DNA of 64,000 nucleotides, taken from contig NZ_QKMF01000022.1 of assembly GCF_003208435.1 (NCBI RefSeq), positions 1-64,000 of the forward strand. Reading direction: 5' to 3'. Source of the DNA: Pelagimonas varians (GTDB lineage: Bacteria > Pseudomonadota > Alphaproteobacteria > Rhodobacterales > Rhodobacteraceae). Under the pieces are notes generated by a model, which did no database searches, had not been told where the DNA came from, and worked only from the letters and a program-made list of their open reading frames with translations. The translations under genes were made by a program, and so were the position numbers. Numbering within the stretch: position 1 is the first letter of the stretch; each line of letters begins with the position of its first letter. Shown piece by piece: positions 51,542 through 63,947 of the stretch.

Positions 51542-52588
51542 ATGAAACGATGGCAAACCGCGGCTGTGGCCGCAATTGCAGCGCTTTGCGCAGGCGCGAC
51601 CAGCGCTGAAACAGTCTTGATCCATGGCGAAGCCGGACCGAACAGGGGCGCTCGTGCAAAGGCGATCCAATGGTTTGCGGATGAGGTCGCGGACCGGTCT
51701 GGCGGCGATATGCGCATTGATGTGCAATGGGGCGGCGCGCTGTTCAAAGCCAATGCGGCTTTGCAGTCTATCCATGATGGTGTCGGCGACATGGGGACGA
51801 TCATTTCGGTTTACTATCCGCAAGAATTTGCCAGTTATGGCATCGCGGATCTGCCGCTTGATAATCCGGATGCCTGGGTTGGCATGCGTGCAACCGATGA
51901 ATTGTTTCGGACCAATGCAGCGGTCAAGCAGGTTCTGGACCAAAAGAACCTTGTCTACATTGGCACCTTCACAACCAGCCAGGTCAATATCGGTTGCAAG
52001 GGGACTGCGATCCGGACCGCCGATGACATTGACGGTCTAAAAGTGCGCGGTGTCGGGGCATATGGAAAGGTCTTTGGTGAGATGGGGGCGAACATGGTTC
52101 GCATGTCGATTTATGACGCCTATCAGGGCTTGGACAGCGGATTGATCGATTGTTCGCAAGGGTATTCCTATGCGGTCTCTGCACTCAAGCAGGCCGAGGT
52201 GATGGACAGCTATACTTTGCTCAATTGGGGGCAGGTTGGCGGTGTCGGCACCTTCATGAACAAAGATGCCTTTGATGCGCTGAGCGCAGAGCAACAAGAC
52301 CTGCTGTTGGCAGCCGGATCAGACATGGTGGACTACTTTGGCCAGATTCTAACGGGGGCCAATGCCAAGGCAATCGAAGACATGAAGGCCGGAGGTCTTG
52401 AGGTCATTGAATTGCCCGACGCCGAGCGTGCCAAGCTTTTGGAAAAGGGCGCGGGTCATGTGGACGCATGGGTCGAGACGGCTGGTAAGGCCGGTCTTGA
52501 TGGTGCGGCTTTGTTGGATGAATATCGCGGTTTGCTGGCGAAATATGCCGCAGAACGTGATGCAAAAGGCTACCCTTGGGCGCGCTAA
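51542..52588 (+). CDS. dctP: TRAP transporter solute-binding protein (DctP family)
   Basis: This 348-residue periplasmic receptor captures a carboxylate substrate. The signal peptide MKRWQTAAVAAIAALCAGAT ends near TSA. The conserved Arg of DctP proteins that binds the carboxylate is R169 in DIDGLKVRGVGAYGKV. The chain has QWGGALFKANAALQSIHDGV and YQGLDSGLIDCSQG, both usual. GGGAGG precedes the ATG at 51542. It is the first gene of the catabolic operon. Confidence 0.93.
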   Translation: MKRWQTAAVAAIAALCAGATSAETVLIHGEAGPNRGARAKAIQWFADEVADRSGGDMRIDVQWGGALFKANAALQSIHDGVGDMGTIISVYYPQEFASYGIADLPLDNPDAWVGMRATDELFRTNAAVKQVLDQKNLVYIGTFTTSQVNIGCKGTAIRTADDIDGLKVRGVGAYGKVFGEMGANMVRMSIYDAYQGLDSGLIDCSQGYSYAVSALKQAEVMDSYTLLNWGQVGGVGTFMNKDAFDALSAEQQDLLLAAGSDMVDYFGQILTGANAKAIEDMKAGGLEVIELPDAERAKLLEKGAGHVDAWVETAGKAGLDGAALLDEYRGLLAKYAAERDAKGYPWAR

Positions 52589-52603: not shown

Positions 52604-53086
52604 ATGCTGAAACGCTTTGAAAATATGTTGCTGGGGCTTGCGGCCCTGGCAGTGTTGGCGATGGGGGCAATGATCACGTTGAACGTGGTCTTGCGCCTCT
52701 TCGGCACATCTTTGCCCGACAGTGTTGTACTGGTCCGCGAGCTGATGGTGGCTGGCATTTTGCTGCCATTGGCGGCGGTCACGGCAGCGCGGGCACATGT
52801 CTGTGTCGAAGTCCTGACCAATCGGCTGCCTGACCGCGTGACGCAGTTCCTGATTTTGATCGGTTGGTTCATAGGGTTGATTGCCTTTGCGCCGATGGTC
52901 TTTGCCGGTTGGCGCGAACTGAGCGCGACTTGGAGCAGTGGCAGCTTTTTCTTTGGCGATTTGTCTTTGCCGAAATGGCCGGGACGTTTGATTTTCTTTG
53001 TGGCGATGGTGGCCTTTTGGCTGCGGCTGTTGCTGGTTTTCAAGACAGATGCGCAGGCCTTCCTGCGCGGTGAAAAGGCGGAATAA
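52604..53086 (+). CDS. dctQ: TRAP transporter small membrane subunit (DctQ)
   Basis: This 160-residue protein with four membrane helices has LRLFGTSLPDSVVLVRELMV and AAVTAARAHVCVEVLTNRLP, typical of DctQ. It bridges the large permease and the receptor. It lies 15 bases after dctP and its stop touches the dctM start. Confidence 0.9.
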   Translation: MLKRFENMLLGLAALAVLAMGAMITLNVVLRLFGTSLPDSVVLVRELMVAGILLPLAAVTAARAHVCVEVLTNRLPDRVTQFLILIGWFIGLIAFAPMVFAGWRELSATWSSGSFFFGDLSLPKWPGRLIFFVAMVAFWLRLLLVFKTDAQAFLRGEKAE

Positions 53087-54424
53087 ATGGACGGAGCAAC
53101 CATTGGCCTGATCGCCTTTGCGGCGGTGTTGGGAATGTTGGCGATACGGGTGCCGATTGCCTTTGCCTTGGCCAGCGCATCAACCTTGGGGACGTTTTTC
53201 ATTTTTGCCACCCGCACGGGGGCCTTTGCGCCCGAACGTGCGGTGCGGCCCACGACATCCCTGGTATTCTCAAATGCCTTTGATCTGGTTCACAACTATA
53301 ACTTGTCGATGATCCCGCTTTTTGTTGCCTTGGGCCATATTGCCTACCGAGCGGGGATCACGACAAATATCTATGAGGCGGCCAAGGTCTGGCTGACCAA
53401 TCTGCGCGGCGGTGTTGCTATGGCCTCGATCGTCGGGTGTGGCGGTTTTTCTGCCATCACCGGCAGCTCGATCGCCTGCGCATCAACTATGGGCCGGATC
53501 TGCACGCCAGAGATGCTGCGCATGGGCTATGACAACCGCTTGGCGACGGCCTCGGTGGCTGCGGGCGGCACGCTTGGGTCCCTGATTCCGCCGTCGGTAT
53601 TGTTCATAATCTACGGTATTTTCACCGAGACATCGGTGTCAAAATTGTTCCTCGCCGGCGTTCTTCCGGGTTTGCTGACACTTGCGGGCTTTGTGCTGGT
53701 GGTGGCTGTCTGGGTGCGCCACGATCCCAAAATCGCACCTGATTCCGGCCTGACTTACAGCCGCGCCGAACGGCTTCAGGCGGCAGTCAAAGCATGGCCG
53801 GCTTTCTTGTTGTTTGCAGTCATCGTCGGGGGTATTTACGGCGGCATCTTTACCGCGACAGAAGCCGCAGCCGTTTCAGTCAGCTTCGCAATCCTCATCG
53901 GTTTTCTGCAAAGGCAATTGACGCTGCAGTCACTTTGGGAATCGCTCAAGGAAACCTGCATTCAAACAGCGGGCATTTTCATTATCGCCGCCAGCGCCAA
54001 GATTTTTGTCGCCTTTATCGCCCTGACCGGCGTTGCCCCGAAACTGGTTGGCATGGTGACCGAAGCAGAACTGTCAGTGGTTGCGCTGATGGCCGCGATT
54101 GCGGTTATCTACTTGCTGCTGGGTATGTTCCTTGATCCCATCGGCATCATGGTGCTGACCCTGCCACTGATTGTTCCACTGGTCGAAGGCTACGGACTTG
54201 ATCTGATCTGGTTCGGTGTAGTGATCATCAAGCTGTTGGAAATCGGGCTTATTACGCCGCCGGTGGGGCTGAATGTGTTTGTCATCGCCGGGGTGGTCGG
54301 AAAAGAGGCCCCGCTGGACCGGATATTTGCCGGGGTTGCGCGGTTTTTGTCAGTGGATTTGATTGTGCTTTTGCTCATCATGTCATTTCCGATAATTTCG
54401 CTGCTTTTACCGACCAGCATGTAA
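53087..54424 (+). CDS. dctM: TRAP transporter large permease (DctM)
   Basis: This 445-residue protein has about 12 membrane helices and forms the sodium-driven permease. Characteristic segments are IPLFVALGHIAYRAGITTNI, AGGTLGSLIPPSVLFIIYGI and LGMFLDPIGIMVLTLPLIVP with the following VEGYGLDLIWFGVVIIKLLE. The start follows dctQ directly. The IclR gene follows after seven bases. Confidence 0.94.
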   Translation: MDGATIGLIAFAAVLGMLAIRVPIAFALASASTLGTFFIFATRTGAFAPERAVRPTTSLVFSNAFDLVHNYNLSMIPLFVALGHIAYRAGITTNIYEAAKVWLTNLRGGVAMASIVGCGGFSAITGSSIACASTMGRICTPEMLRMGYDNRLATASVAAGGTLGSLIPPSVLFIIYGIFTETSVSKLFLAGVLPGLLTLAGFVLVVAVWVRHDPKIAPDSGLTYSRAERLQAAVKAWPAFLLFAVIVGGIYGGIFTATEAAAVSVSFAILIGFLQRQLTLQSLWESLKETCIQTAGIFIIAASAKIFVAFIALTGVAPKLVGMVTEAELSVVALMAAIAVIYLLLGMFLDPIGIMVLTLPLIVPLVEGYGLDLIWFGVVIIKLLEIGLITPPVGLNVFVIAGVVGKEAPLDRIFAGVARFLSVDLIVLLLIMSFPIISLLLPTSM

Positions 54425-54431
54425 GGGGCGC

Positions 54432-55196
54432 ATGATGACTGACCGAAAATTTGCCAACACTCTGGCACGGGGCCTGTCGGTTTTGCGCGCCTTTCGCATC
54501 AGCGATGACGGGCTAAGCCACAGCCAGATTGTGGAACGGACAGGCCTGTCGCCTGCCACGATTACGCGGTTGACCTATACGTTGAAGGAATTGGGATACC
54601 TGAGCCAGAACGGTAATTTATTGCGGCTTGGCCCGTCAGCTTTGGCTCTGGCCAGTGTTGCACAGACTTCGACCTCCTTTTTGGATCTGGCAGAGGCGCC
54701 GATGCAAGAGCTGGCCAACCAGACGCAGACGCTGGTGTTGATGGCGGTGCGCGATGGGGGATCGATGACCTTGGTGCGCACATGGCGGCCGCGCAATGCG
54801 GGTTCCATTTGGCTTGAGACAGGCAATCGGGTGCCTATGGCGCGGTCTTCGACGGGGCAGGGTTTCTTGGCAGGCCTTAGCGAAGGTCGTTTTGCCGCGA
54901 TGGATCCGGACGAAGAGCTGATCCAGCAACGCAAAGACGCCCATGCCCAACTTGCGGCGCAGGGCTTTGTCTTTGTGCAAGGAGAGGCGCGTTTTTCCCA
55001 AACCATCAATGCTGTGTCACGCCCGTTTTTCGCCAGCGATTTGGGTGAACCGGTGGTCTTTGGTTGCGGAGCCACGCCGGCAGAACTGACAGATGAGCGC
55101 ATTTTGGCAGAGGTTGGACCGATGCTGCGCGATGCGATGCGCGATTTAGAACTGAAAACCGGCGGCCGCAGGGCGCTGGACCAATTGAGAACATAG
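54432..55196 (+). CDS. IclR-family transcriptional regulator
   Basis: This 254-residue regulator has an N-terminal winged helix (GLSHSQIVERTGLSPATITR) and a C-terminal effector domain (LAEAPMQELANQTQTLVLMA and RSSTGQGFLAGLSEGRFAAM). It lies between the transporter and the enzymes and so is expected to sense the substrate or its CoA ester. IclR proteins often act as local repressors; overlapping palindromes at 51505-51528 are the candidate target. GGGGCGC stands before the two adjacent start ATGs. Confidence 0.92.
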   Translation: MMTDRKFANTLARGLSVLRAFRISDDGLSHSQIVERTGLSPATITRLTYTLKELGYLSQNGNLLRLGPSALALASVAQTSTSFLDLAEAPMQELANQTQTLVLMAVRDGGSMTLVRTWRPRNAGSIWLETGNRVPMARSSTGQGFLAGLSEGRFAAMDPDEELIQQRKDAHAQLAAQGFVFVQGEARFSQTINAVSRPFFASDLGEPVVFGCGATPAELTDERILAEVGPMLRDAMRDLELKTGGRRALDQLRT

Positions 55197-55207
55197 AAAA
55201 GAACGAC

Positions 55208-57289
55208 ATGACCATTCATTTCGAAATGCACGATGACATTGCGGTTCTGGCAGCGGACAATCCGCCGGTGAACGCATTGGGGTGGGCTGTACGGCAAGGC
55301 CTCCTTGATGGCATCACCCGCGCACAGGCCGAAGGGGCCAAGGCGATTGTCATCTACGGACGCGGCCGAACGTGGTTCGCGGGGGCCGATATCCGCGAAT
55401 TTGGCAAACCCTTGCAAGAACCAAGCCTGCCGGGCCTGTGCAATTTGGTAGAGGCCTGCAAAATTCCTGTGATTGCGGCAATGCACGGCACAGCGCTGGG
55501 CGGCGGGCTTGAGATCGCTTTGGGCTGTCACTATCGCATTGCAGTTCCGACGGCCAAAATGGGTTTTCCAGAGGTGCATTTGGGTTTGTTGCCGGGGGCA
55601 GGCGGCACCCAGCGTTTGCCGCGTGTCACTGGCTATGAACAAGCTATTTCACTGATCACTTCAGGCCGTCCCATTGGTGCTGCCAAGGCTCTGGATCTTG
55701 GGTTGGTCGATAAGGTCGAGGCGGGTGAGCCACTGGCCTTGGGGCTTGCCTATGCCCGCGAACTGCTGGCGCAAGGGGCCGGACCACGTCCGGTCAGCCA
55801 GATGCCTGCCCCGGAGGCCATCGATTTTGACGCGGCCAAGGCGGCCGTGGCGAAAAAAGCGCGCGGCCAGCTGTCACCGGTGGTGGCGGTTGAGGCCATC
55901 GAAGCCTCGTCCAAATTGGCGTTTGCCGAAGGGTTGGCCGAAGAGCGGCGGCTGTTCATGTCTTTGATGGAAACCGATCAGCGCCAAGGCATGATCCACG
56001 CCTTCTTTAGTGAACGGCAGGTCAGCAAGCAGCCCGATCTCGCGGGGGTATCCCCACGTGATATCAACAGTATGGGGGTGATCGGCGGCGGTACAATGGG
56101 GGCTGGCATTGCCACTGCTGCGCTTTTGGCCGGTCTGTCTGTGGTCTTGATCGAGATGACGGATGACGGAGCGAAAGCTGCCAAAGCGCGCATCGCCAGC
56201 AATTTGGCTGGCGCTTTGAAACGCGGCAAAATTGATCAAGCCAAACATGACGCGATCTTGAACGAGGCGCTAACCTGCGCAACAGATTATGCCGCTTTGG
56301 GCGAGGCTGATTTAATCATCGAAGCTGTCTTCGAAGATATGGATGTCAAAAAGCAGGTTTTCGCCAAACTGGATGCCGTTGCGAAACCGGGGGCGATTTT
56401 GGCGTCCAACACATCCTATCTAAATCTGGATGAAATCGCGACTACCACGTCGCGGCCCGCCGATGTCATTGGTTTGCACTTCTTTAGTCCCGCCCATGTC
56501 ATGAAACTGCTCGAAGTGGTGGTGGGCGCGCAAACTGCGCCAGAGGTCATCGCCAGCGGGTTTGCATTGGGCAAGCGGCTTGGCAAAACTTCGGTTCGGT
56601 CCGGTGTCTGTGACGGATTTATCGGCAACCGGATGATGTTCACCTATCGAACCTGTGCCGATCACATGGTGCTGGACGGGGCGACGCCGTATCAGATCGA
56701 TCGTGTGCTCGAAGAGTTCGGGTTTGCCATGGGGCTTTTTGCGGTGGGCGATCTGGCTGGACTGGATATCGGCTGGGCCAATCGCAAACGCCTTGCACCG
56801 TTGCGCGATCCACAAGAAAGGGTGCCGACCTATGCCGACAAGCTGTGCGAGGCCGGGCATTATGGGCAAAAAACCGGACGTGGCTATTACATTTACGAAG
56901 GCCGCGCCAAGGTTGAAAACCCGGATGTCATGCCTTTGGTCGAGGCTGAGCGCTTGGAGCTGGGCATCACACCGCGCAGCTTTTCGGATGCCGAGATTTT
57001 GCGCCGGTACATGGCGGCCATGGTCAATGAGGCGGCCAAGATTGTCGGAGAGGGCATCGCCCGCCGTCCCTTGGACGTCGATATGGTCTCGCTCATGGGA
57101 TACGGGTTTCCGCGCTACAATGGCGGGCCGTTGAAATGGGCCGATCTGCAAGGCTTGCCCGCGCTTTTGGACGATATCAAATCCTACGCAAAGGAAGATG
57201 CGTTCTTTTGGACACCTGCGCCTTTGCTGGAGCAACTGGTCGCACAAGGCCGCACATTTGACGATCTGAACAAGGAAGCCGCGCAATGA
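55208..57289 (+). CDS. Bifunctional enoyl-CoA hydratase / 3-hydroxyacyl-CoA dehydrogenase (PimF/FadJ-like)
   Basis: This 693-residue fusion combines two beta-oxidation steps. The crotonase half has both hydratase glutamates, E102 in GGGLEIALG and E122 in [16 protein letters not shown]. The dehydrogenase half begins at about 288 with the NAD loop [10 protein letters not shown] and has [29 protein letters not shown] and [11 protein letters not shown]. It lies 11 bases after iclR and its stop overlaps the thiolase start. PimF of Rhodopseudomonas palustris has the same fusion. Confidence 0.94.
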
Positions 57290-58458
57290 AACAGGCCGTG
57301 ATTGTAGATGCGGGCCGGACCGGTCTGGCGAAATCCTTTCGGGGATCGTTTAACCAGACACATGGGGCGACGATGACCGCGCATGTCATTGCGGGTCTTA
57401 TGGCCCGCACAGGGCTAGCGGCTGATGCCATCGAAGATGTGGTCATCGGATGCGGTTACCCAGAGGCCGAAACAGGCGGCAACATCGCCCGTCAGGCTGG
57501 ATTTCTGGCGGGGCTTGATAAATCCTCGGCCGGGCAAACGGTCAGCCGGTTTTGCGCGTCAGGTTTGCAGGCGATTGCCACAGCCGCCAATGCAATTACT
57601 CAAGACGGGGCCGGTGCCCAGGTGGCTGGCGGCGTGGAAAGCATCAGCTTGATCCAGCCAAAAATCCGCCGTGTGCCAGAGCCGACCTTGATGGCGAAAA
57701 TGCCCGAAGTGTATCATTCGATGATCGAAACGGCCAATTTGGTGGGCGCGCGGTATAACGTCAGCCGCGAAGACCAAGACGCCTTTAGCCTTGTGTCGCA
57801 GCAGCGGATTGCAGCGGCGCAAGAGGCAGGGGTGTTTGCCAATGAAATCTTGCCGATGCAGACGGTTATGGCCGTCAAAGACCGCGCGACCGGTGAGGTG
57901 TCGCAAGTCGATGCCACCGTTGACCGCGATGAATGCAACCGTCCCGGCACCACTTTGGAGGGCTTGTCGGGGCTTAAGCCTGTGATTGAGGGCGGCTGCG
58001 TCACGGCGGGCAATGCATCGCAACTGTCGGATGGGGCCGCTGCCTTGATTTTGATGGAGGCCTCAGAGGCCGAGGCGCGAGGATTGAACCCTTTGGGCGC
58101 GTTCAAAGGCTTTGCCGTCGCGGGCTGCGGGCCCGAAGAAATGGGCATTGGTCCTGTGTTTGCAGTGCCGCGTTTGCTGGAACGGCACGGGCTAAGAGTC
58201 GATGACATCGACCTGTGGGAAATCAACGAGGCCTTTGCCTCTCAGGCGCTGTATTGCCAACGCACCCTTGGAATTGATCCGGCAAAATTGAACGTCAACG
58301 GCGGGTCCATCGCGATTGGACACCCGTTTGGCATGACGGGCGCGCGGCTTGCCGGGCATCTGTTGCACGAAGGCCAGCGGCGCGGGGCAAAGCTGGGCGT
58401 TGTGTCGATGTGTATTGCGGGCGGCATGGGTGCTGCTGGCCTGTTTGAAATCTACTGA
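57286..58458 (+). CDS. Acetyl-CoA acyltransferase (thiolase, PimB-like)
   Basis: This 390-residue thiolase cleaves 3-ketoacyl-CoA with CoA. The nucleophile C90 is in SRFCASGLQAIATA. The second active-site block is NVNGGSIAIGHPFGMTGARL and the last is SMCIAGGMGAAGLFEIY, which holds the base cysteine. The ATG overlaps the stop of the fused gene (ATGA). It is the last step of each chain-shortening cycle in this operon. Confidence 0.95.
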   Translation: MKQAVIVDAGRTGLAKSFRGSFNQTHGATMTAHVIAGLMARTGLAADAIEDVVIGCGYPEAETGGNIARQAGFLAGLDKSSAGQTVSRFCASGLQAIATAANAITQDGAGAQVAGGVESISLIQPKIRRVPEPTLMAKMPEVYHSMIETANLVGARYNVSREDQDAFSLVSQQRIAAAQEAGVFANEILPMQTVMAVKDRATGEVSQVDATVDRDECNRPGTTLEGLSGLKPVIEGGCVTAGNASQLSDGAAALILMEASEAEARGLNPLGAFKGFAVAGCGPEEMGIGPVFAVPRLLERHGLRVDDIDLWEINEAFASQALYCQRTLGIDPAKLNVNGGSIAIGHPFGMTGARLAGHLLHEGQRRGAKLGVVSMCIAGGMGAAGLFEIY

Positions 58459-58470
58459 GGAGAGCGGAAA

Positions 58471-59667
58471 ATGGACCTGAATTTTACCGCTGAAGACCAC
58501 GCATTTCGCGCAGAGGTCAAAGCCTTTCTGGCGGAAAAGCTCCCCGCCGCTTTGGCGGACAAGGTGCGCCTGAACCAAGGTCTGAGCAAGGAAGACCATG
58601 ACTTCTGGCACAGCCAGTTGAATGCGCGCGGCTGGTTGGCGACCAATTGGCCCAAACGCTTTGGCGGGGCGGAATGGGGCACCGTGCAGCGCCACATTTA
58701 TGAAGAAGAATGCGCCTTGGCCCATGCGCCGCGTGTGGTGCCCTTTGGTTTGGCAATGCTTGGCCCCGTGCTGCAAAAATTCGGGTCCGAGGCGCAGCAA
58801 GCCCATTGGTTGCCGCGCATCCTGAACGGTCAGGACTGGTGGTGTCAGGGCTATTCGGAACCGGGTGCAGGCAGTGATCTGGCAGCGTTGCAAACCCGCG
58901 CCCTGCGCGACGGAGACCACTATGTCGTGAATGGTCAAAAGACGTGGACTACGCTGGGCCAACACGCAAACATGATCTTCTGCCTTGTGCGCACCGATCC
59001 GGATGCCAAAAAGCAAGAAGGCATTTCGTTCTTGTTGATCGATATGGACACCCCTGGAATCGAAGTGCGCCCGATCACACTGATCGACGGCGGGGTCGAG
59101 GTGAACGAGGTCTGGTTCACCGATGTCCGCGTGCCTGTGGAAAATCTGGTTGGCGCAGAAAACAAAGGCTGGACCTATGCCAAATACCTGCTGACGCATG
59201 AGCGCACGAATATTGCCGGTGTCGGCTTTAGCCGTGCAGGTTTGGATACGGTGAAGCGGATCGCCATCCGCGCGCGGTCTGGCGGCAGGCCGCTGATTGA
59301 AAACCCGCATTTCGCGGCAAGGGTCGCGCAGGTCGAGATTGATTTGATGGCCATGTCGACCACGAATTTACGGATCGTGTCCAAAGCGGCTGCGGGCCAA
59401 GCGCCGGGGATCGAAAGCTCGCTTTTGAAAATCAAGGGCACGCAAATTCGTCAGGAAATCACCGATCTGGCCCGCCGTGCGGTGGGGCCACATGCGATGC
59501 CCTTTGCCTCGGACGGGGTGGATGGCAACGCACCGGTGCCCGACCCATTGGATGCTGGGGCCGTTGCGGCCAGCTATTTCAACAACCGCAAACTGTCGAT
59601 CTTTGGCGGATCAAACGAAATCCAGCGCGAGATCTACGCCAAACAAATGATGAGGGACGCGAAATGA
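58471..59667 (+). CDS. Acyl-CoA dehydrogenase, PimC-like large subunit
   Basis: This 398-residue acyl-CoA dehydrogenase introduces the 2,3 double bond with FAD. It has GYSEPGAGSDLAALQTRALR, NGQKTWTTLGQHANMIFCLV and FFDDVRV-like VNEVWFTDVRVPVENLVGAE, and near the C terminus KLSIFGGSNEIQREIYAKQM. The family resembles the large subunit of pimeloyl-CoA dehydrogenase. It is paired with the next gene by a four-base overlap, as pimC-pimD are. It may also belong to steroid or terpenoid degradation families, which share this type. Confidence 0.92.
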   Translation: MDLNFTAEDHAFRAEVKAFLAEKLPAALADKVRLNQGLSKEDHDFWHSQLNARGWLATNWPKRFGGAEWGTVQRHIYEEECALAHAPRVVPFGLAMLGPVLQKFGSEAQQAHWLPRILNGQDWWCQGYSEPGAGSDLAALQTRALRDGDHYVVNGQKTWTTLGQHANMIFCLVRTDPDAKKQEGISFLLIDMDTPGIEVRPITLIDGGVEVNEVWFTDVRVPVENLVGAENKGWTYAKYLLTHERTNIAGVGFSRAGLDTVKRIAIRARSGGRPLIENPHFAARVAQVEIDLMAMSTTNLRIVSKAAAGQAPGIESSLLKIKGTQIRQEITDLARRAVGPHAMPFASDGVDGNAPVPDPLDAGAVAASYFNNRKLSIFGGSNEIQREIYAKQMMRDAK

Positions 59668-60707
59668 ATTTTGAGCTGACCGAAGAGCGGCAAATGCTGC
59701 AAGATAGCCTGCGCCGGTATCTGGCTGGTGCCTCGGGTGATGTCTGGGCCGGTTTGGCCGATCTTGGCGTTATCGGCGCTTTGTTCCCCGAAGAAAAAGG
59801 CGGCTATGGCGGCGCTGGGTTTGATCTGGCTGTGGTGTTCGAAGAACTGGGCCGCGCTGATCTGGACGTGCCGTTGATTGACAATGCACTGCTACCGGGG
59901 CTGCTGATGACGGCGGCCGGACAAGATGTCGAACCGCTGATCGCAGGCGGGCAAAAAATTGCAGTGGCACATGGCGAAACCGCAGCGCGGTATGATCTGA
60001 ACTGGGTGGAAACCCGCGCCGACGGGGATCTGCTGACCGGTGAAAAATGCGTTGTTGTTGGCGGCGAGGCGGCGGATGTGTTGATTGTCTCTGCCCGCCA
60101 TTCGGGCACGGCTGATGTACAAGACGGCATTGGCCTATGGCTCGTGGAGCGCGATGCGCCGGGGCTTCGGTTGCAGGGGTATGAAATCGCGCAAGGGGGC
60201 CGCGCAGCAGAGGTTTCGCTAACCGATACGCCGGGAACACCCTTGATGACTGAGGGGTATGCGGCGATCGTGCAGGCCATGGCCGCCGCGACCTTGGCGG
60301 AAATGGCGCAAACCTTGGGGGCCATGGATGTGGCAGTGGCCATGACCCAAGAGTATCTGACAACGCGCAAGCAGTTTGGTCGCCCGATTGGCAGCTTTCA
60401 GGCATTGTCGCACCGTTTGGTCGATGTGATGGTCGCCGTAGAACAGGCGCGGTCCATGGTTATATTGGCCGCCGCACACCTTGAGGCGGAAGAGCCGGTG
60501 CGAGGCCGTCATATTTCAGCCGCCAAGAACCTGATAGGGCGGTCTGGGCGGTTGGTGGCCGAGGAATGCATCCAGATGCACGGCGGCATCGGCATGACGG
60601 AAGAGTATGCGCTGGGCCGTTATGCAAAACGCATTGTTATGGCGGATCACCGTTTTGGCGATACCGATCATCATTTGGAACAGTTCATCGCACTGGGTGC
60701 CGCATGA
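59664..60707 (+). CDS. Acyl-CoA dehydrogenase, PimD-like small subunit
   Basis: This 347-residue acyl-CoA dehydrogenase is shorter than its neighbour, with FELTEERQMLQDSLRRYLAG at the N terminus and QMHGGIGMTEEYALGRYAKR near the end. The middle beta domain is abbreviated and less conserved than in standard enzymes. Together with the preceding gene it likely forms a heteromeric enzyme. The overlap with both neighbours (ATGA) shows tight coupling. Confidence 0.9.
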   Translation: MNFELTEERQMLQDSLRRYLAGASGDVWAGLADLGVIGALFPEEKGGYGGAGFDLAVVFEELGRADLDVPLIDNALLPGLLMTAAGQDVEPLIAGGQKIAVAHGETAARYDLNWVETRADGDLLTGEKCVVVGGEAADVLIVSARHSGTADVQDGIGLWLVERDAPGLRLQGYEIAQGGRAAEVSLTDTPGTPLMTEGYAAIVQAMAAATLAEMAQTLGAMDVAVAMTQEYLTTRKQFGRPIGSFQALSHRLVDVMVAVEQARSMVILAAAHLEAEEPVRGRHISAAKNLIGRSGRLVAEECIQMHGGIGMTEEYALGRYAKRIVMADHRFGDTDHHLEQFIALGAA

Positions 60708-61471
60708 CAGTGCGCCTTGAACGACAAGGCAGCAGCCTGATCGTGCATAATTCTACTGAAAAACGCGGGGCGATCACGCCTGACCTGTATCAAACGATTG
60801 CTGCGGCGATGGAACAAGCCCGCGCGCCGGATATTCGCTGTGTGATCCTGACCGGTGGCGATTTCTTTTGTGCAGGCGGCAATCTAAAGGTTCTGGCGAC
60901 ACGGGCTGCGCTTGCGCCACAAGAACGGCGGGCCAAGATCGAAATCTTGCATGATGTAATACGCGCCATGCACGCTTGTCCGGTGCCGATTATCGCCGCG
61001 GTCGAGGGCGGCGCGGCGGGGGCCGGCCTGTCTTTGACGCTGGCTTGCGATTTCATTGTGGCGTCCAGGGGCGCGCAATTCACCGCAGCCTATGTCAAAG
61101 CAGGGCTGACGCCGGACGGCGGGCTGACCCATGCTTTGTCGCGGTTGTTGCCGCGGCAAATGGCCATGCAGCTCTGTCTGATTGGCGGGGCCATCAGCGC
61201 TGAACAATTGCACGCGCTCGGCATTGTCTTCCAACTGAGCCCCATAGGGGAAACGCTGGGTGATGCGCATAAATTGGCGGAGCAACTTTCGCGTGGTCCG
61301 GCGCGCGCGCAGGCGCGCATCCGGCAATTACTGAACGAAGCGCAAGACACAACGCTTTCAGACCAGTTGGACCGTGAGGCTGCGTTTATGGCCGAGGCCC
61401 AAGGCGATTCCGAGGCGGCCATCGGCATTCAAGCCTTCATCGAAAAACGCAAGGCAGAGTTCCAGCTATGA
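60704..61471 (+). CDS. Crotonase-family protein, isomerase-like (lacks hydratase glutamates)
   Basis: This 255-residue crotonase has the oxyanion features (FFCAGGNLKVLATR and GGAAGAGLSL). The two glutamates of enoyl-CoA hydratases are absent: Ser110 stands at the first place and Tyr130 at the second by my alignment. An Asp is present at D138 in GLTPDGGLTH, as in PaaG and other enoyl-CoA isomerases. It may therefore move double bonds of unsaturated or ring-derived acyl-CoAs rather than hydrate them. It starts in the stop of the preceding gene. Confidence 0.88.
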   Translation: MTVRLERQGSSLIVHNSTEKRGAITPDLYQTIAAAMEQARAPDIRCVILTGGDFFCAGGNLKVLATRAALAPQERRAKIEILHDVIRAMHACPVPIIAAVEGGAAGAGLSLTLACDFIVASRGAQFTAAYVKAGLTPDGGLTHALSRLLPRQMAMQLCLIGGAISAEQLHALGIVFQLSPIGETLGDAHKLAEQLSRGPARAQARIRQLLNEAQDTTLSDQLDREAAFMAEAQGDSEAAIGIQAFIEKRKAEFQL

Positions 61472-62472
61472 CCATTCTTAACACTGAACTGACCCGTCGT
61501 TTCGGGCTGCGCTTGCCGGTGCTGGCAGGGGGGCTGATGTGGCTGGCTGACGCCGACTATGTTGCTGCGGCTGCCCATGCAGGGGCTTTGGGTTTTTTGA
61601 CCGCCGCCAGTTTTCCCGAGGATGACGCGCTGCGTGCAGAAATTGCCAGAGCACGGGCGCTTTGTGGCGGAAAACCATTTGGGGTTAACGTGTCGATGCT
61701 GCCAAAGCTGGTGCCGGGGGACCGCGCCGAAGCGGTATTTCGCATTTCCGCCGAAGAAGGGGTGACGGTGGTTGAAACCTCTGGGCGCAATCCTGAGCCC
61801 TACATGCCGTTGATACGCGAACTGGGGCTGGTGGTGATTCATAAGGTGCCGGCAGTGCGCTATGCGATCAAGGCGCAGTCGGTTGGTGTGGATATGGTCA
61901 CGATTGTCGGGGCAGAATGCGGCGGTCATCCCGGGATGGATATGGTCGGCAGCTTTGTGAATGCCGCGATGGCAGGCCGTGATTTGGATATTCCATTTAT
62001 CATTGGCGGCGGCGTCGGGCACGGATCGCAGATTGTTGCGGCATTGGCGATGGGGGCATCCGGCGTCGTGATGGGCACCCGCCTGTTGGTCGCTGAAGAG
62101 TTGAACGCACATCAAGATTACAAGCGGGCCATTGCCGAAGCGAGTGAGCGTGACACCGCGCTGACCATGTCATCGGTCCGCAACACGGTGCGCACACTTG
62201 CCAATGAAACAACCGCAGCGGTGACCAAAATGGAAACCGACAACCCGAATGTAACGATTGCGGAATTGATGCCTCTGGTTTCGGGTAAAATCGGACGCAA
62301 GGCCTATGAGACTGGCGATGTTTCACACGGGTTGTTGTCTGCGGGTCATGCCTTAGGCTTGACCAATGCGGTGACGCCGATGGCAGACATATTTGCCGAG
62401 CTGGAGCGGGAAGTGATGGTGTCGCTAGGGCGGCTGGATGGGGCAAGATCCCCAAGCGAAGAGGCGGCATGA
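61468..62472 (+). CDS. Nitronate monooxygenase-like flavoprotein (NPD family)
   Basis: This 334-residue FMN TIM-barrel protein of the 2-nitropropane dioxygenase/nitronate monooxygenase family has the catalytic-type His in GAECGGHPGMDMVGSF, IPFIIGGGVGHGSQIVAALA and GASGVVMGTRLLVAEE. Members oxidise nitronates or act as NAD(P)H-flavin oxidoreductases, and some reduce enoyl thioesters (FabK). Its place inside a beta-oxidation operon suggests reduction or oxidation of a pathway CoA ester; this is inference. Confidence 0.9.
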   Translation: MTILNTELTRRFGLRLPVLAGGLMWLADADYVAAAAHAGALGFLTAASFPEDDALRAEIARARALCGGKPFGVNVSMLPKLVPGDRAEAVFRISAEEGVTVVETSGRNPEPYMPLIRELGLVVIHKVPAVRYAIKAQSVGVDMVTIVGAECGGHPGMDMVGSFVNAAMAGRDLDIPFIIGGGVGHGSQIVAALAMGASGVVMGTRLLVAEELNAHQDYKRAIAEASERDTALTMSSVRNTVRTLANETTAAVTKMETDNPNVTIAELMPLVSGKIGRKAYETGDVSHGLLSAGHALGLTNAVTPMADIFAELEREVMVSLGRLDGARSPSEEAA

Positions 62473-63947
62473 CAATGCGCATTCACGATGTACTGGCAGC
62501 CCAAGCCAAAGCGCACCCACAGGCACCCGCACTGAATGACAGTTTGGGATTTGTTTGGACCTACAGTGATCTCAACCAAACGGTTGAGGCACTGGCGCTG
62601 GAATTGACTGATCTCGGAGTGCAGCGAAATGACCGGGTTTTGCTGGTCATGGAGAACTGCGGACCGGCTGTTGCTATGTTGTTTGCCGCGTCCAAAGTCG
62701 GAGCGGTCCTGATCCCGTTCAATGCCCGCCAATTGAAAGCAGATGTGGCGCGGGTGATCGAACATTCTACGCCCGCTGTTGCCGTGTTCACCAGCGCTGT
62801 GTCGAAAGAAGCGGCGGAACATGCCAAAGACATGGGGGCGACGCCTTTGACGGCGGCGCAGGGCAGTTTGCAGGCCGCCCCGCTGGCATCGGACCCGGCA
62901 GAGGAATTGTGCGATGTCGGCACCATCCTTTACACAACCGGCACAACCGCCGCCCCCAAAGGCGTGATGCTGACCCACGACAATCTGTGTTTTGGCGGCG
63001 GGGTGTCGCGTGATGTCCGCAAGATCACGCCTGCGGATGTGCTCTATGGGGTTTTGCCGATGAGTCACGTCTTTGGCTTGGCATCGGTGGTCATGGCTTC
63101 GGTTTTGTCGGGGGCTTCGATCCGTATCGAACCGCGGTTTTCGCCCGCGAACCTGTACCAAGCGCTGCTTGGCGGTGTCACTCTCTTGTCTTCGGTTCCG
63201 CAAATGCTGGCCCAATTGATGCATTATACGCGCGAACAGGGGCATGAGACACTGCCGGTGGAAACACTGCGCTACATCTCGTCGGGTGCCGCGCCGTTGG
63301 ATATAGATTGGAAGCGCAAGGCCGAAGGGTTCTTTGGGCTGCCGCTGCAAAACGGCTATGGTATGACAGAAGGCACCGCAGGCATTTGTTTGACCCAGCA
63401 CGAAGGGCGCAACGATGATATTTCTGTCGGGCAACCCTTTCCGGGGGTGCAAATAGCGCTTGATAAAGACGCGCCCGGCGGGGGCGGGGACATCGGCGAA
63501 ATATTGGTGGCTGGCGGCGGGGTCATGCAGGGGTATTTTCGAAACCCCGAGGCAACGGATCAAGTGTTTACGGCAGACGGCTGGATGCGCACCGGCGACC
63601 TTGGCCGGCTTGATGCAGGGGGTAACTTGCACATCATGGGCCGCTCAAAAGAGCTAATTATTCATGGCGGGTTCAATGTGTATCCACCCGAAGTCGAAGC
63701 GGCGTTGAATGACCATCCGCAAGTGATCCAATGCGCAGTGATCGGCATCATGGACGCGGGCGATGAAAAAGTTTGTGCCTTTGTCGAAGCTGCCCGCAAT
63801 GACTGGCCGGAAGAGGCAGATTTACGCAGCTTTGCGGCCGACCGTTTGGCTGGCTACAAACGGCCCAGCCGGATTGTTGTGGTCGAAAAATTGCCGGCAG
63901 CACCGACAGGAAAAATCTTGAAAACCGCGCTGCCTGCATTGTTGTAA
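62469..63947 (+). CDS. AMP-forming acyl-CoA ligase (PimA-like position)
   Basis: This 492-residue ligase activates the imported acid with ATP and CoA. The P-loop is ILYTTGTTAAPKGVMLTHDN, the adenylate site is QNGYGMTEGTAG and the C-terminal domain has GWMRTGDLGRLDAGGNLHIM, SKELIIHGGFNVYPPEVE and the catalytic lysine K482 in APTGKILKTA. The ATG overlaps the stop of the flavoprotein gene. It is the last gene of the operon in the window. Confidence 0.94.
   Translation: MTMRIHDVLAAQAKAHPQAPALNDSLGFVWTYSDLNQTVEALALELTDLGVQRNDRVLLVMENCGPAVAMLFAASKVGAVLIPFNARQLKADVARVIEHSTPAVAVFTSAVSKEAAEHAKDMGATPLTAAQGSLQAAPLASDPAEELCDVGTILYTTGTTAAPKGVMLTHDNLCFGGGVSRDVRKITPADVLYGVLPMSHVFGLASVVMASVLSGASIRIEPRFSPANLYQALLGGVTLLSSVPQMLAQLMHYTREQGHETLPVETLRYISSGAAPLDIDWKRKAEGFFGLPLQNGYGMTEGTAGICLTQHEGRNDDISVGQPFPGVQIALDKDAPGGGGDIGEILVAGGGVMQGYFRNPEATDQVFTADGWMRTGDLGRLDAGGNLHIMGRSKELIIHGGFNVYPPEVEAALNDHPQVIQCAVIGIMDAGDEKVCAFVEAARNDWPEEADLRSFAADRLAGYKRPSRIVVVEKLPAAPTGKILKTALPALL

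Follow-up and report, generated by a model that had tools for sequence, protein, structure and literature searches.

The window analysed here (a 64,000 nt stretch of the Pelagimonas varians genome) carries an operon in which a fused enoyl-CoA hydratase/3-hydroxyacyl-CoA dehydrogenase is accompanied by a second, stand-alone crotonase-fold protein (Table 1), raising the question of which reaction this additional enzyme contributes. An earlier note on this DNA had proposed that both hydratase glutamates are replaced in the protein, that it holds a PaaG-type aspartate, and that, with hydration already provided for by the fused enzyme, it isomerises double bonds in an unsaturated or ring-derived substrate. 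The gene boundaries and residues named there proved correct when compared with the open reading frame and the alignments.

Table 1. Genes of the operon around the crotonase, with coordinates as positions in the window
Feature	Coordinates	Strand	Remarks
TRAP transporter solute-binding protein (DctP)	51542..52588	+	
TRAP transporter small membrane subunit (DctQ)	52604..53086	+	
TRAP transporter large membrane subunit (DctM)	53087..54424	+	
IclR-type regulator	54432..55196	+	
Fused enoyl-CoA hydratase / 3-hydroxyacyl-CoA dehydrogenase (PimF/FadB-like)	55208..57289	+	Glu102, Glu122 kept
Thiolase	57286..58458	+	
PimC-like acyl-CoA dehydrogenase	58471..59667	+	TIGR03204 472.9 bits, below cut-off 623.85
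PimD-like acyl-CoA dehydrogenase partner subunit	59664..60707	+	TIGR03203 235.2 bits, below cut-off 652.7
Crotonase-fold protein, Ser110/Tyr130/Asp138 type	60704..61471	+	255 aa
Nitronate monooxygenase (NMO)-family flavoprotein	61468..62472	+	
AMP-forming acyl-CoA ligase	62469..63947	+	

The protein is a member of the crotonase superfamily, with a fold that is predicted at high confidence (AlphaFold2 model from an input of 68 sequences, pLDDT 95.5, pTM 0.92) and a PF00378 (ECH_1) score of 153.6 bits against a cut-off of 27. The 50 fold matches listed for the model span Z scores of 28.9–34.9, the top one among them being 4jfc (Z 34.9, rmsd 1.6 over 254 residues, 41 % identity), followed by hydratases and PaaG (3hrx/6slb), tied at Z ~31. 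Because true hydratases tie with PaaG in this way, the fold alone does not tell an isomerase from a hydratase.

Nine sequences were aligned, comprising the crotonase, Escherichia coli PaaG and PaaF, the hydratase domain of FadB, the fused enzyme of the window and four crotonases from the same genome. Relative to PaaF and FadB, the first hydratase glutamate (GxGxxE motif) is Ser110 in the crotonase and the second, 20 residues on, is Tyr130; the classical glutamate pair (Glu144/Glu164 of the rat enoyl-CoA hydratase) is missing. Asp138 matches the aspartate of the LIPDCGG loop in E. coli PaaG, and a phmmer alignment with Thermus thermophilus PaaG (3hrx) runs through this stretch without gaps at an offset of 2, equating Ser110 with Ser108, Tyr130 with Phe128 and Asp138 with Asp136. 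The last of these is named as the catalytic aspartate of T. thermophilus PaaG in a tropone review (PMC7497051), and a structure with this residue exchanged (D136N) exists as PDB entry 6sla. Both the replacement of the glutamate pair and the PaaG-type loop claimed in the earlier note are thus confirmed. Within its own genome the crotonase is the only protein with the Ser/Tyr/Asp combination (nine crotonases examined, of 17 matches), and two PaaG-like crotonases there display Asn/Phe/Asp at the same sites. Two others (G000:C1:432614-433384 and G000:C12:47758-48504; L016 and L004, respectively) combine a glutamate at the second site with an aspartate at the PaaG position, a pattern known from dienoyl-CoA isomerases.

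The three residues are widely retained amongst relatives. A set of 87 was considered, made up of 80 loci (the best 80 of 516 matches in a contig scan) and seven sequences from another search; Ser/Tyr/Asp occurs in 74 of these, including all 31 that were scored as lying in pim-like operons, and of the 13 rows without it, three (EEG twice, DYG once) represent different crotonases that the scan picked up. A tree was then built with IQ-TREE from 111 rows, following removal of 6 of 117 sequences that were shorter than 225 aa. The window crotonase belongs to a starred 23-row clade (99/96), 19 rows of which are pim-like, window included. A clade of 28 rows (92/83, not starred) contains 20 pim-like rows, mostly betaproteobacterial, and one further pim-like row lies outside both. 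A starred clade of 41 rows (99/98) holds all 20 rows labelled kinase/ACAD only and two of the three labelled both, with none labelled pim-like only, and three PaaG-like rows form a separate group (100/97). The context labels themselves were assigned across 117 rows as pim-like (40, window included), kinase/ACAD (20), both (3) or none (54), a total that includes seven reference rows whose surroundings were not part of the labelling.

Across the 92 rows of the three clades (23 + 28 + 41, counting the window and 4jfc), Asp138 is kept in 91, the remaining row having Glu, and Ser110 and Tyr130 are each kept in 88. There is no glutamate at either hydratase site, be it in the crotonase or in any of the 92 rows. 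Such retention marks a conserved alternative site, not decay. This count is confined to the clades, leaving aside the tree rows L111, L120, L129, L031, L124-L126, L121, L122, L128, L132, L130 and L133 together with the references, and at least three pairs of rows represent one gene reached twice (L025/L090, L026/L071 and L085/L179, at zero branch length). At position 82, 80 of the 92 rows carry Leu and 12 Phe, with Tyr in none; the four PaaG-like rows (E. coli, T. thermophilus and two from the window's own genome) instead have Gln, Tyr, Phe and Asp at the sites of Gly59, Leu82, Tyr130 and Asp138, respectively. Leu82 occupies the position of Tyr80 in T. thermophilus PaaG, a lid that, according to PMC7497051, shuts over the ligand and drives water out.

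With regard to the operon, the PimC and PimD homologues score below their model cut-offs, and it is for this reason termed pim-like and not pim. That hydratase activity is already supplied by the fused enzyme, as had been claimed, is very likely given the two glutamates that it retains, and in relatives' pim-like operons both are present in 34 of 35 full-length fused ORFs, the remaining one being unaligned at the sites; in 7 further such operons no full-length fused ORF was found. Nevertheless, the annotation of E. coli FadB includes Delta3-Delta2 isomerase activity as well, so that the presence of a hydratase next door is not enough to identify the crotonase as an isomerase.

Many alphaproteobacterial operons mirror that of the window, and in betaproteobacteria (Variovorax, Comamonas, Acidovorax and others) a family III CoA-transferase is found near the crotonase, directly after it in L057, L062, L072 and L076 (PF02515 in L062, the one locus for which this was assigned by Pfam). 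Alphaproteobacterial operons carry the NMO or ligase gene where betaproteobacterial ones have the transferase. The closest solved relative of the NMO-family protein is PA1024 (2gjl), then 6e2a, and no NMO-family gene was seen in several related operons. In many related alphaproteobacterial operons (L054, L055, L058 and others) an ORF of 136–189 aa sits between PimD and the crotonase, which is a hotdog thioesterase (4HBT) in L054, the one scanned, and which is missing from the window. Attempts to derive a substrate from the neighbours were uninformative: DctP has no match at E 1e-20 (the best, 4n6d, is at 1.3e-20), and for the ligase a threshold of E 1e-60 gave seven solved sequences, which belong to gramicidin synthase A and to a malonyl/benzoate-CoA ligase chimera.

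The distribution of the gene was surveyed in 198 sampled genomes of the window's taxonomic family, at E 1e-75 for the crotonase and E 1e-150 for the PimC homologue. The crotonase is present in 34 (32 over the cut-off of NF046063, its best NCBIfam model) and the PimC homologue in 66; 33 of the 34 crotonase genomes have PimC, and 33 of the 66 PimC genomes have the crotonase, an association with a Fisher p of 4.7e-18, kinship ignored. Within these genomes, 28 of 36 crotonase genes lie ≤6 kb from PimC on the same strand, and one of the other eight is at a contig break. Even where PimC is at least 70 % identical, 8 of 33 genomes are without the crotonase. In wider samples, members over the cut-off occur in 19 of 398 sampled phylum genomes and 6 of 240 sampled class genomes. 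As the crotonase is nearly always found with PimC, and PimC often without the crotonase, the protein is, as judged from sequence and gene order, an accessory step of a pim-like beta-oxidation operon.

The name that databases would assign is a different one. NF046063, 'oxepin-CoA hydrolase, alternative type', matches the crotonase at 318.2 bits (cut-off 300). At E 1e-89, roughly equivalent to this cut-off, it recognises 57 of the 68 members in the alignment, the window protein being counted among them. Price 2022 (PMC9007349) reports that H281DRAFT_04594 of Paraburkholderia bryophila and a 97 % identical homologue matter for the use of phenylacetate/phenylalanine, predicts the former from fitness data to be the missing oxepin-CoA hydrolase, and describes lost catalytic residues, with S118 and M135 in place of rat E144 and Q162. 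We infer that this study was the basis for NF046063, with H281DRAFT_04594 its likely type. A literature search, conducted largely outside subscription journals, yielded Price 2022 as the one paper bearing the tag H281DRAFT_04594, and found neither other genetic data on the wider family nor any paper combining 'oxepin-CoA hydrolase' with 'alternative type'. Three loci, L171, L173 and L176, have a serine that is number 118 by the same count (the methionine would be 136, not 135), and all three lie in the 41-row clade; the phenotype behind the name thus appears to belong to the other clade and not to that of the window. The bit scores of NF046063 fail to separate the two contexts, with one gene in pim context reaching 383 bits.

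The surroundings of this other clade are distinct, with an APH-type kinase and an acyl-CoA dehydrogenase and/or 3-hydroxyacyl-CoA dehydrogenase nearby (kinase context at L191-L194, L196, L198, L200, L203, L204 and L207-L209, and at L091-L093, L098, L102, L104, L107, L114, L116 and L118); one such locus additionally encodes, by Pfam, a histidine phosphatase and a GST. A kinase paired with an ACAD recalls the ACAD10/ACAD11 route for 4-hydroxyacyl-CoA, and this context could bear on the real function of H281DRAFT_04594.

The phenylacetate genes of the carrier genomes were compared likewise. The window's own genome encodes PaaA (540.1 bits, cut-off 280), fused PaaZ (957.4 bits, cut-off 562.8) and a separate PaaG (370.2 bits, over the TIGR02280 cut-off of 345.15), and so, by its genes, has no need for an alternative oxepin-CoA hydrolase. 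Eight genomes, this one included, hold only pim-type clades: four have fused PaaZ with PaaA, three are without PaaA, and in the last, G419, PaaA occurs with no PaaZ or PacL-like match at E 1e-40, making it the one case that fits the NF046063 name. Another of the eight, G109, reaches 289.5 bits, which is below the cut-off, and its second copy was left out of the tree. None of the eight has a PacL-like gene. Amongst 17 genomes with the other clade, three have fused PaaZ and eight a PacL-like gene (ALDH part only, 543–557 bits), two having both. The contrast in PacL-like genes gave a Fisher p of 0.018 at 8/14 against 0/7, a value that belongs to these counts, made before reassignment by the tree, and not to the 8/17 against 0/8 that followed; being confounded by taxonomy, and drawn from genomes chosen for carrying the family, it is only a hint.

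The reading that we favour, at a probability of roughly 0.4, is that the crotonase is an isomerase of unsaturated, dicarboxylic or ring-derived acyl-CoA, driven by Asp138. The acyl-CoA thioester would bind in the usual oxyanion hole, and Asp138, following the precedent of PaaG, would serve as the single acid/base on the CoA-thioester enolate, moving a proton across the substrate between C2 and C4. A 3-enoyl (or 3,5-dienoyl) CoA would in this manner be converted to the conjugated 2-enoyl-CoA, which the fused neighbour could then hydrate. More tentatively, the substrate may be an unsaturated dicarboxylic or ring-derived acyl-CoA, as suggested by the PimCD-like dehydrogenase pair and by PaaG isomerising 3,4-didehydroadipyl-CoA: PDB entry 6slb is PaaG with trans-3,4-didehydroadipyl-CoA, and proton shuttling by Asp136 in didehydroadipoyl-CoA isomerisation is described in PMC7497051. 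It is this dicarboxylic second substrate of PaaG, together with the hydratase next door and the accessory role, that places the isomerase first. The pim-like setting is in keeping with data from Ralstonia CL21, where PimCD homologues from operons other than that of the window are important for C8-C12 dicarboxylates (PMC12543098).

Several observations speak against an isomerase nonetheless. The tyrosine lid of PaaG is replaced by Leu82 and its Phe128 by Tyr130, with Tyr at position 82 in 0 of 92 rows compared to 4 of 4 PaaG-like ones; the TIGR02280 score of 159.5 bits is far under the cut-off; the genome already has a PaaG above it; and the fused neighbour may, as the FadB annotation implies, render an isomerase redundant. 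Furthermore, a wider relative was read as a hydrolase by the authors of Price 2022 (PMC9007349). The missing lid and the conserved tyrosine at the second glutamate site would leave room for water chemistry, giving rise to the main rival, which is only somewhat less probable: that Asp138, with Tyr130, activates water against a cyclic acyl-CoA which the operon itself produces. The resulting dicarboxylyl-CoA would then be degraded by the PimCD-like dehydrogenases together with the fused enzyme and the thiolase. The pim-like downstream genes suit such a ring-opening hydrolase, as does the reading of the phenylacetate member of the wider family as an oxepin-CoA ring hydrolase (PMC9007349), although that role is itself a prediction, and no ring-forming gene was found in the window operon. 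Its position would be like that of BadI, a member of a different crotonase branch that acts ahead of the pim enzymes. BadI (TIGR03210, cut-off 467.6) is not found over its cut-off in the window's own genome, where the three matches obtained at E 1e-30, scoring 136.7 bits at best, all belong to genes other than the crotonase, nor in 15 of 18 crotonase-carrying genomes searched, one of them falling 1.3 bits short; the remaining 3 of 18, however, hold both. The crotonase as a replacement for BadI was therefore dropped, there being no exclusion either way. A broader combination, in which the Ser110/Tyr130/Asp138 crotonases form a separate catalytic type beside PaaG, the pim-operon clades are ring-opening hydrolases converting alicyclic beta-keto/enol-ether acyl-CoA formed by their own operon to dicarboxylyl-CoA, and 'oxepin-CoA hydrolase' lumps at least two enzymes, is unlikely as a whole.

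The function that the NF046063 name implies, oxepin-CoA hydrolysis in the phenylacetate pathway, is highly improbable. The model score, the Ser/Tyr/Asp site shared with the clade of the three Ser118 proteins, and the gene content of G419 all suit this function, yet they are set against the presence of PaaA, PaaG and fused PaaZ in the own genome, the separation of the 23-row window clade from the 41-row Ser118 clade, the pim-type-only genomes in which fused PaaZ is present (4/8) or PaaA absent (3/8), and a gene that travels with PimC. A hydratase or dehydratase relying solely on Asp138 (with Tyr130), and acting on a 2-enoyl-CoA of an unusual kind, such as a branched one, for which the fused enzyme is poorly suited, is also quite unlikely: the fold is equally near to true hydratases and the water-excluding lid is absent, but so are both catalytic glutamates, in 92 of 92 rows, and the operon's own hydratase keeps its pair. 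There is, finally, only a slim chance of other CoA-thioester chemistry, namely decarboxylation, thioester hydrolysis or dehalogenation-type reaction at a nucleophilic aspartate. An aspartate near the position of Asp138 is the nucleophile of 4-chlorobenzoyl-CoA dehalogenase; no operon gene was recognised that hints at a substrate of this kind.

Returning to the isomerase, the double-bond isomerisation put forward in the earlier note stands as plausible and short of established: the non-classical hydratase site, the PaaG-type aspartate, the operon hydratase with both glutamates and the accessory role remain, whilst Leu82, Tyr130, the FadB annotation and the hydrolase reading of Price 2022 weigh against it. 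Similarly, a pim-like setting, dicarboxylate or ring-derived, is supported by sequence. Taken together, the protein represents a conserved variant within a known superfamily and probably functions as an isomerase or a ring hydrolase, and the NF046063 name is probably wrong for its clade. Under the NCBIfam model on which NCBI draws for its names, such proteins would be labelled oxepin-CoA hydrolase. Should the pim-operon clades act otherwise, this label would mislead the prediction of pathways in many genomes of alpha- and betaproteobacteria, and maps would lack the real reaction, a step acting on unsaturated or ring-derived dicarboxylic acids. The function should be cheap to test, given the conservation of the Ser/Tyr/Asp site, the solved structure of a relative (4jfc) and the clear operon.

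Compared with known systems, the operon most resembles pimFABCDE of Rhodopseudomonas palustris, which includes a PimC/PimD pair, a fused hydratase/dehydrogenase and a ligase. It has counterparts to each, but differs in that its PimC and PimD fall below the model cut-offs. Four loci with PimC over the cut-off contain PimD in 4/4, the fused enzyme in 2/4 and the ligase in 2/4, and no crotonase orthologue in any (tblastn at E 1e-8, loci of 15–19.5 kb), the only match lying within the fused enzyme of one; an identification of the crotonase with R. palustris PimE, which was itself not pinpointed, was dropped on these grounds. The H281DRAFT_04594/NF046063 type has the Ser/Tyr/Asp site in common with the crotonase, which passes the model cut-off, but it apparently belongs to a different clade and differs in operon. 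The crotonase of Polaromonas sp. JS666 (4jfc, titled enoyl-CoA hydratase) is 41–42 % identical and also Ser/Tyr/Asp, though it too is in the other clade, outside those of the pim operons. PaaG, the 1,2-epoxyphenylacetyl-CoA isomerase (E. coli 4fzw_C; T. thermophilus 3hrx/6sla/6slb), shares the fold, the lack of the hydratase glutamate pair, the catalytic aspartate in a PDxG loop and, in T. thermophilus, the serine at the first site, but forms a separate clade whose TIGR02280 model the crotonase does not approach. The Ser110/Tyr130/Asp138 crotonases are a type that has the aspartate of PaaG and not its lid.
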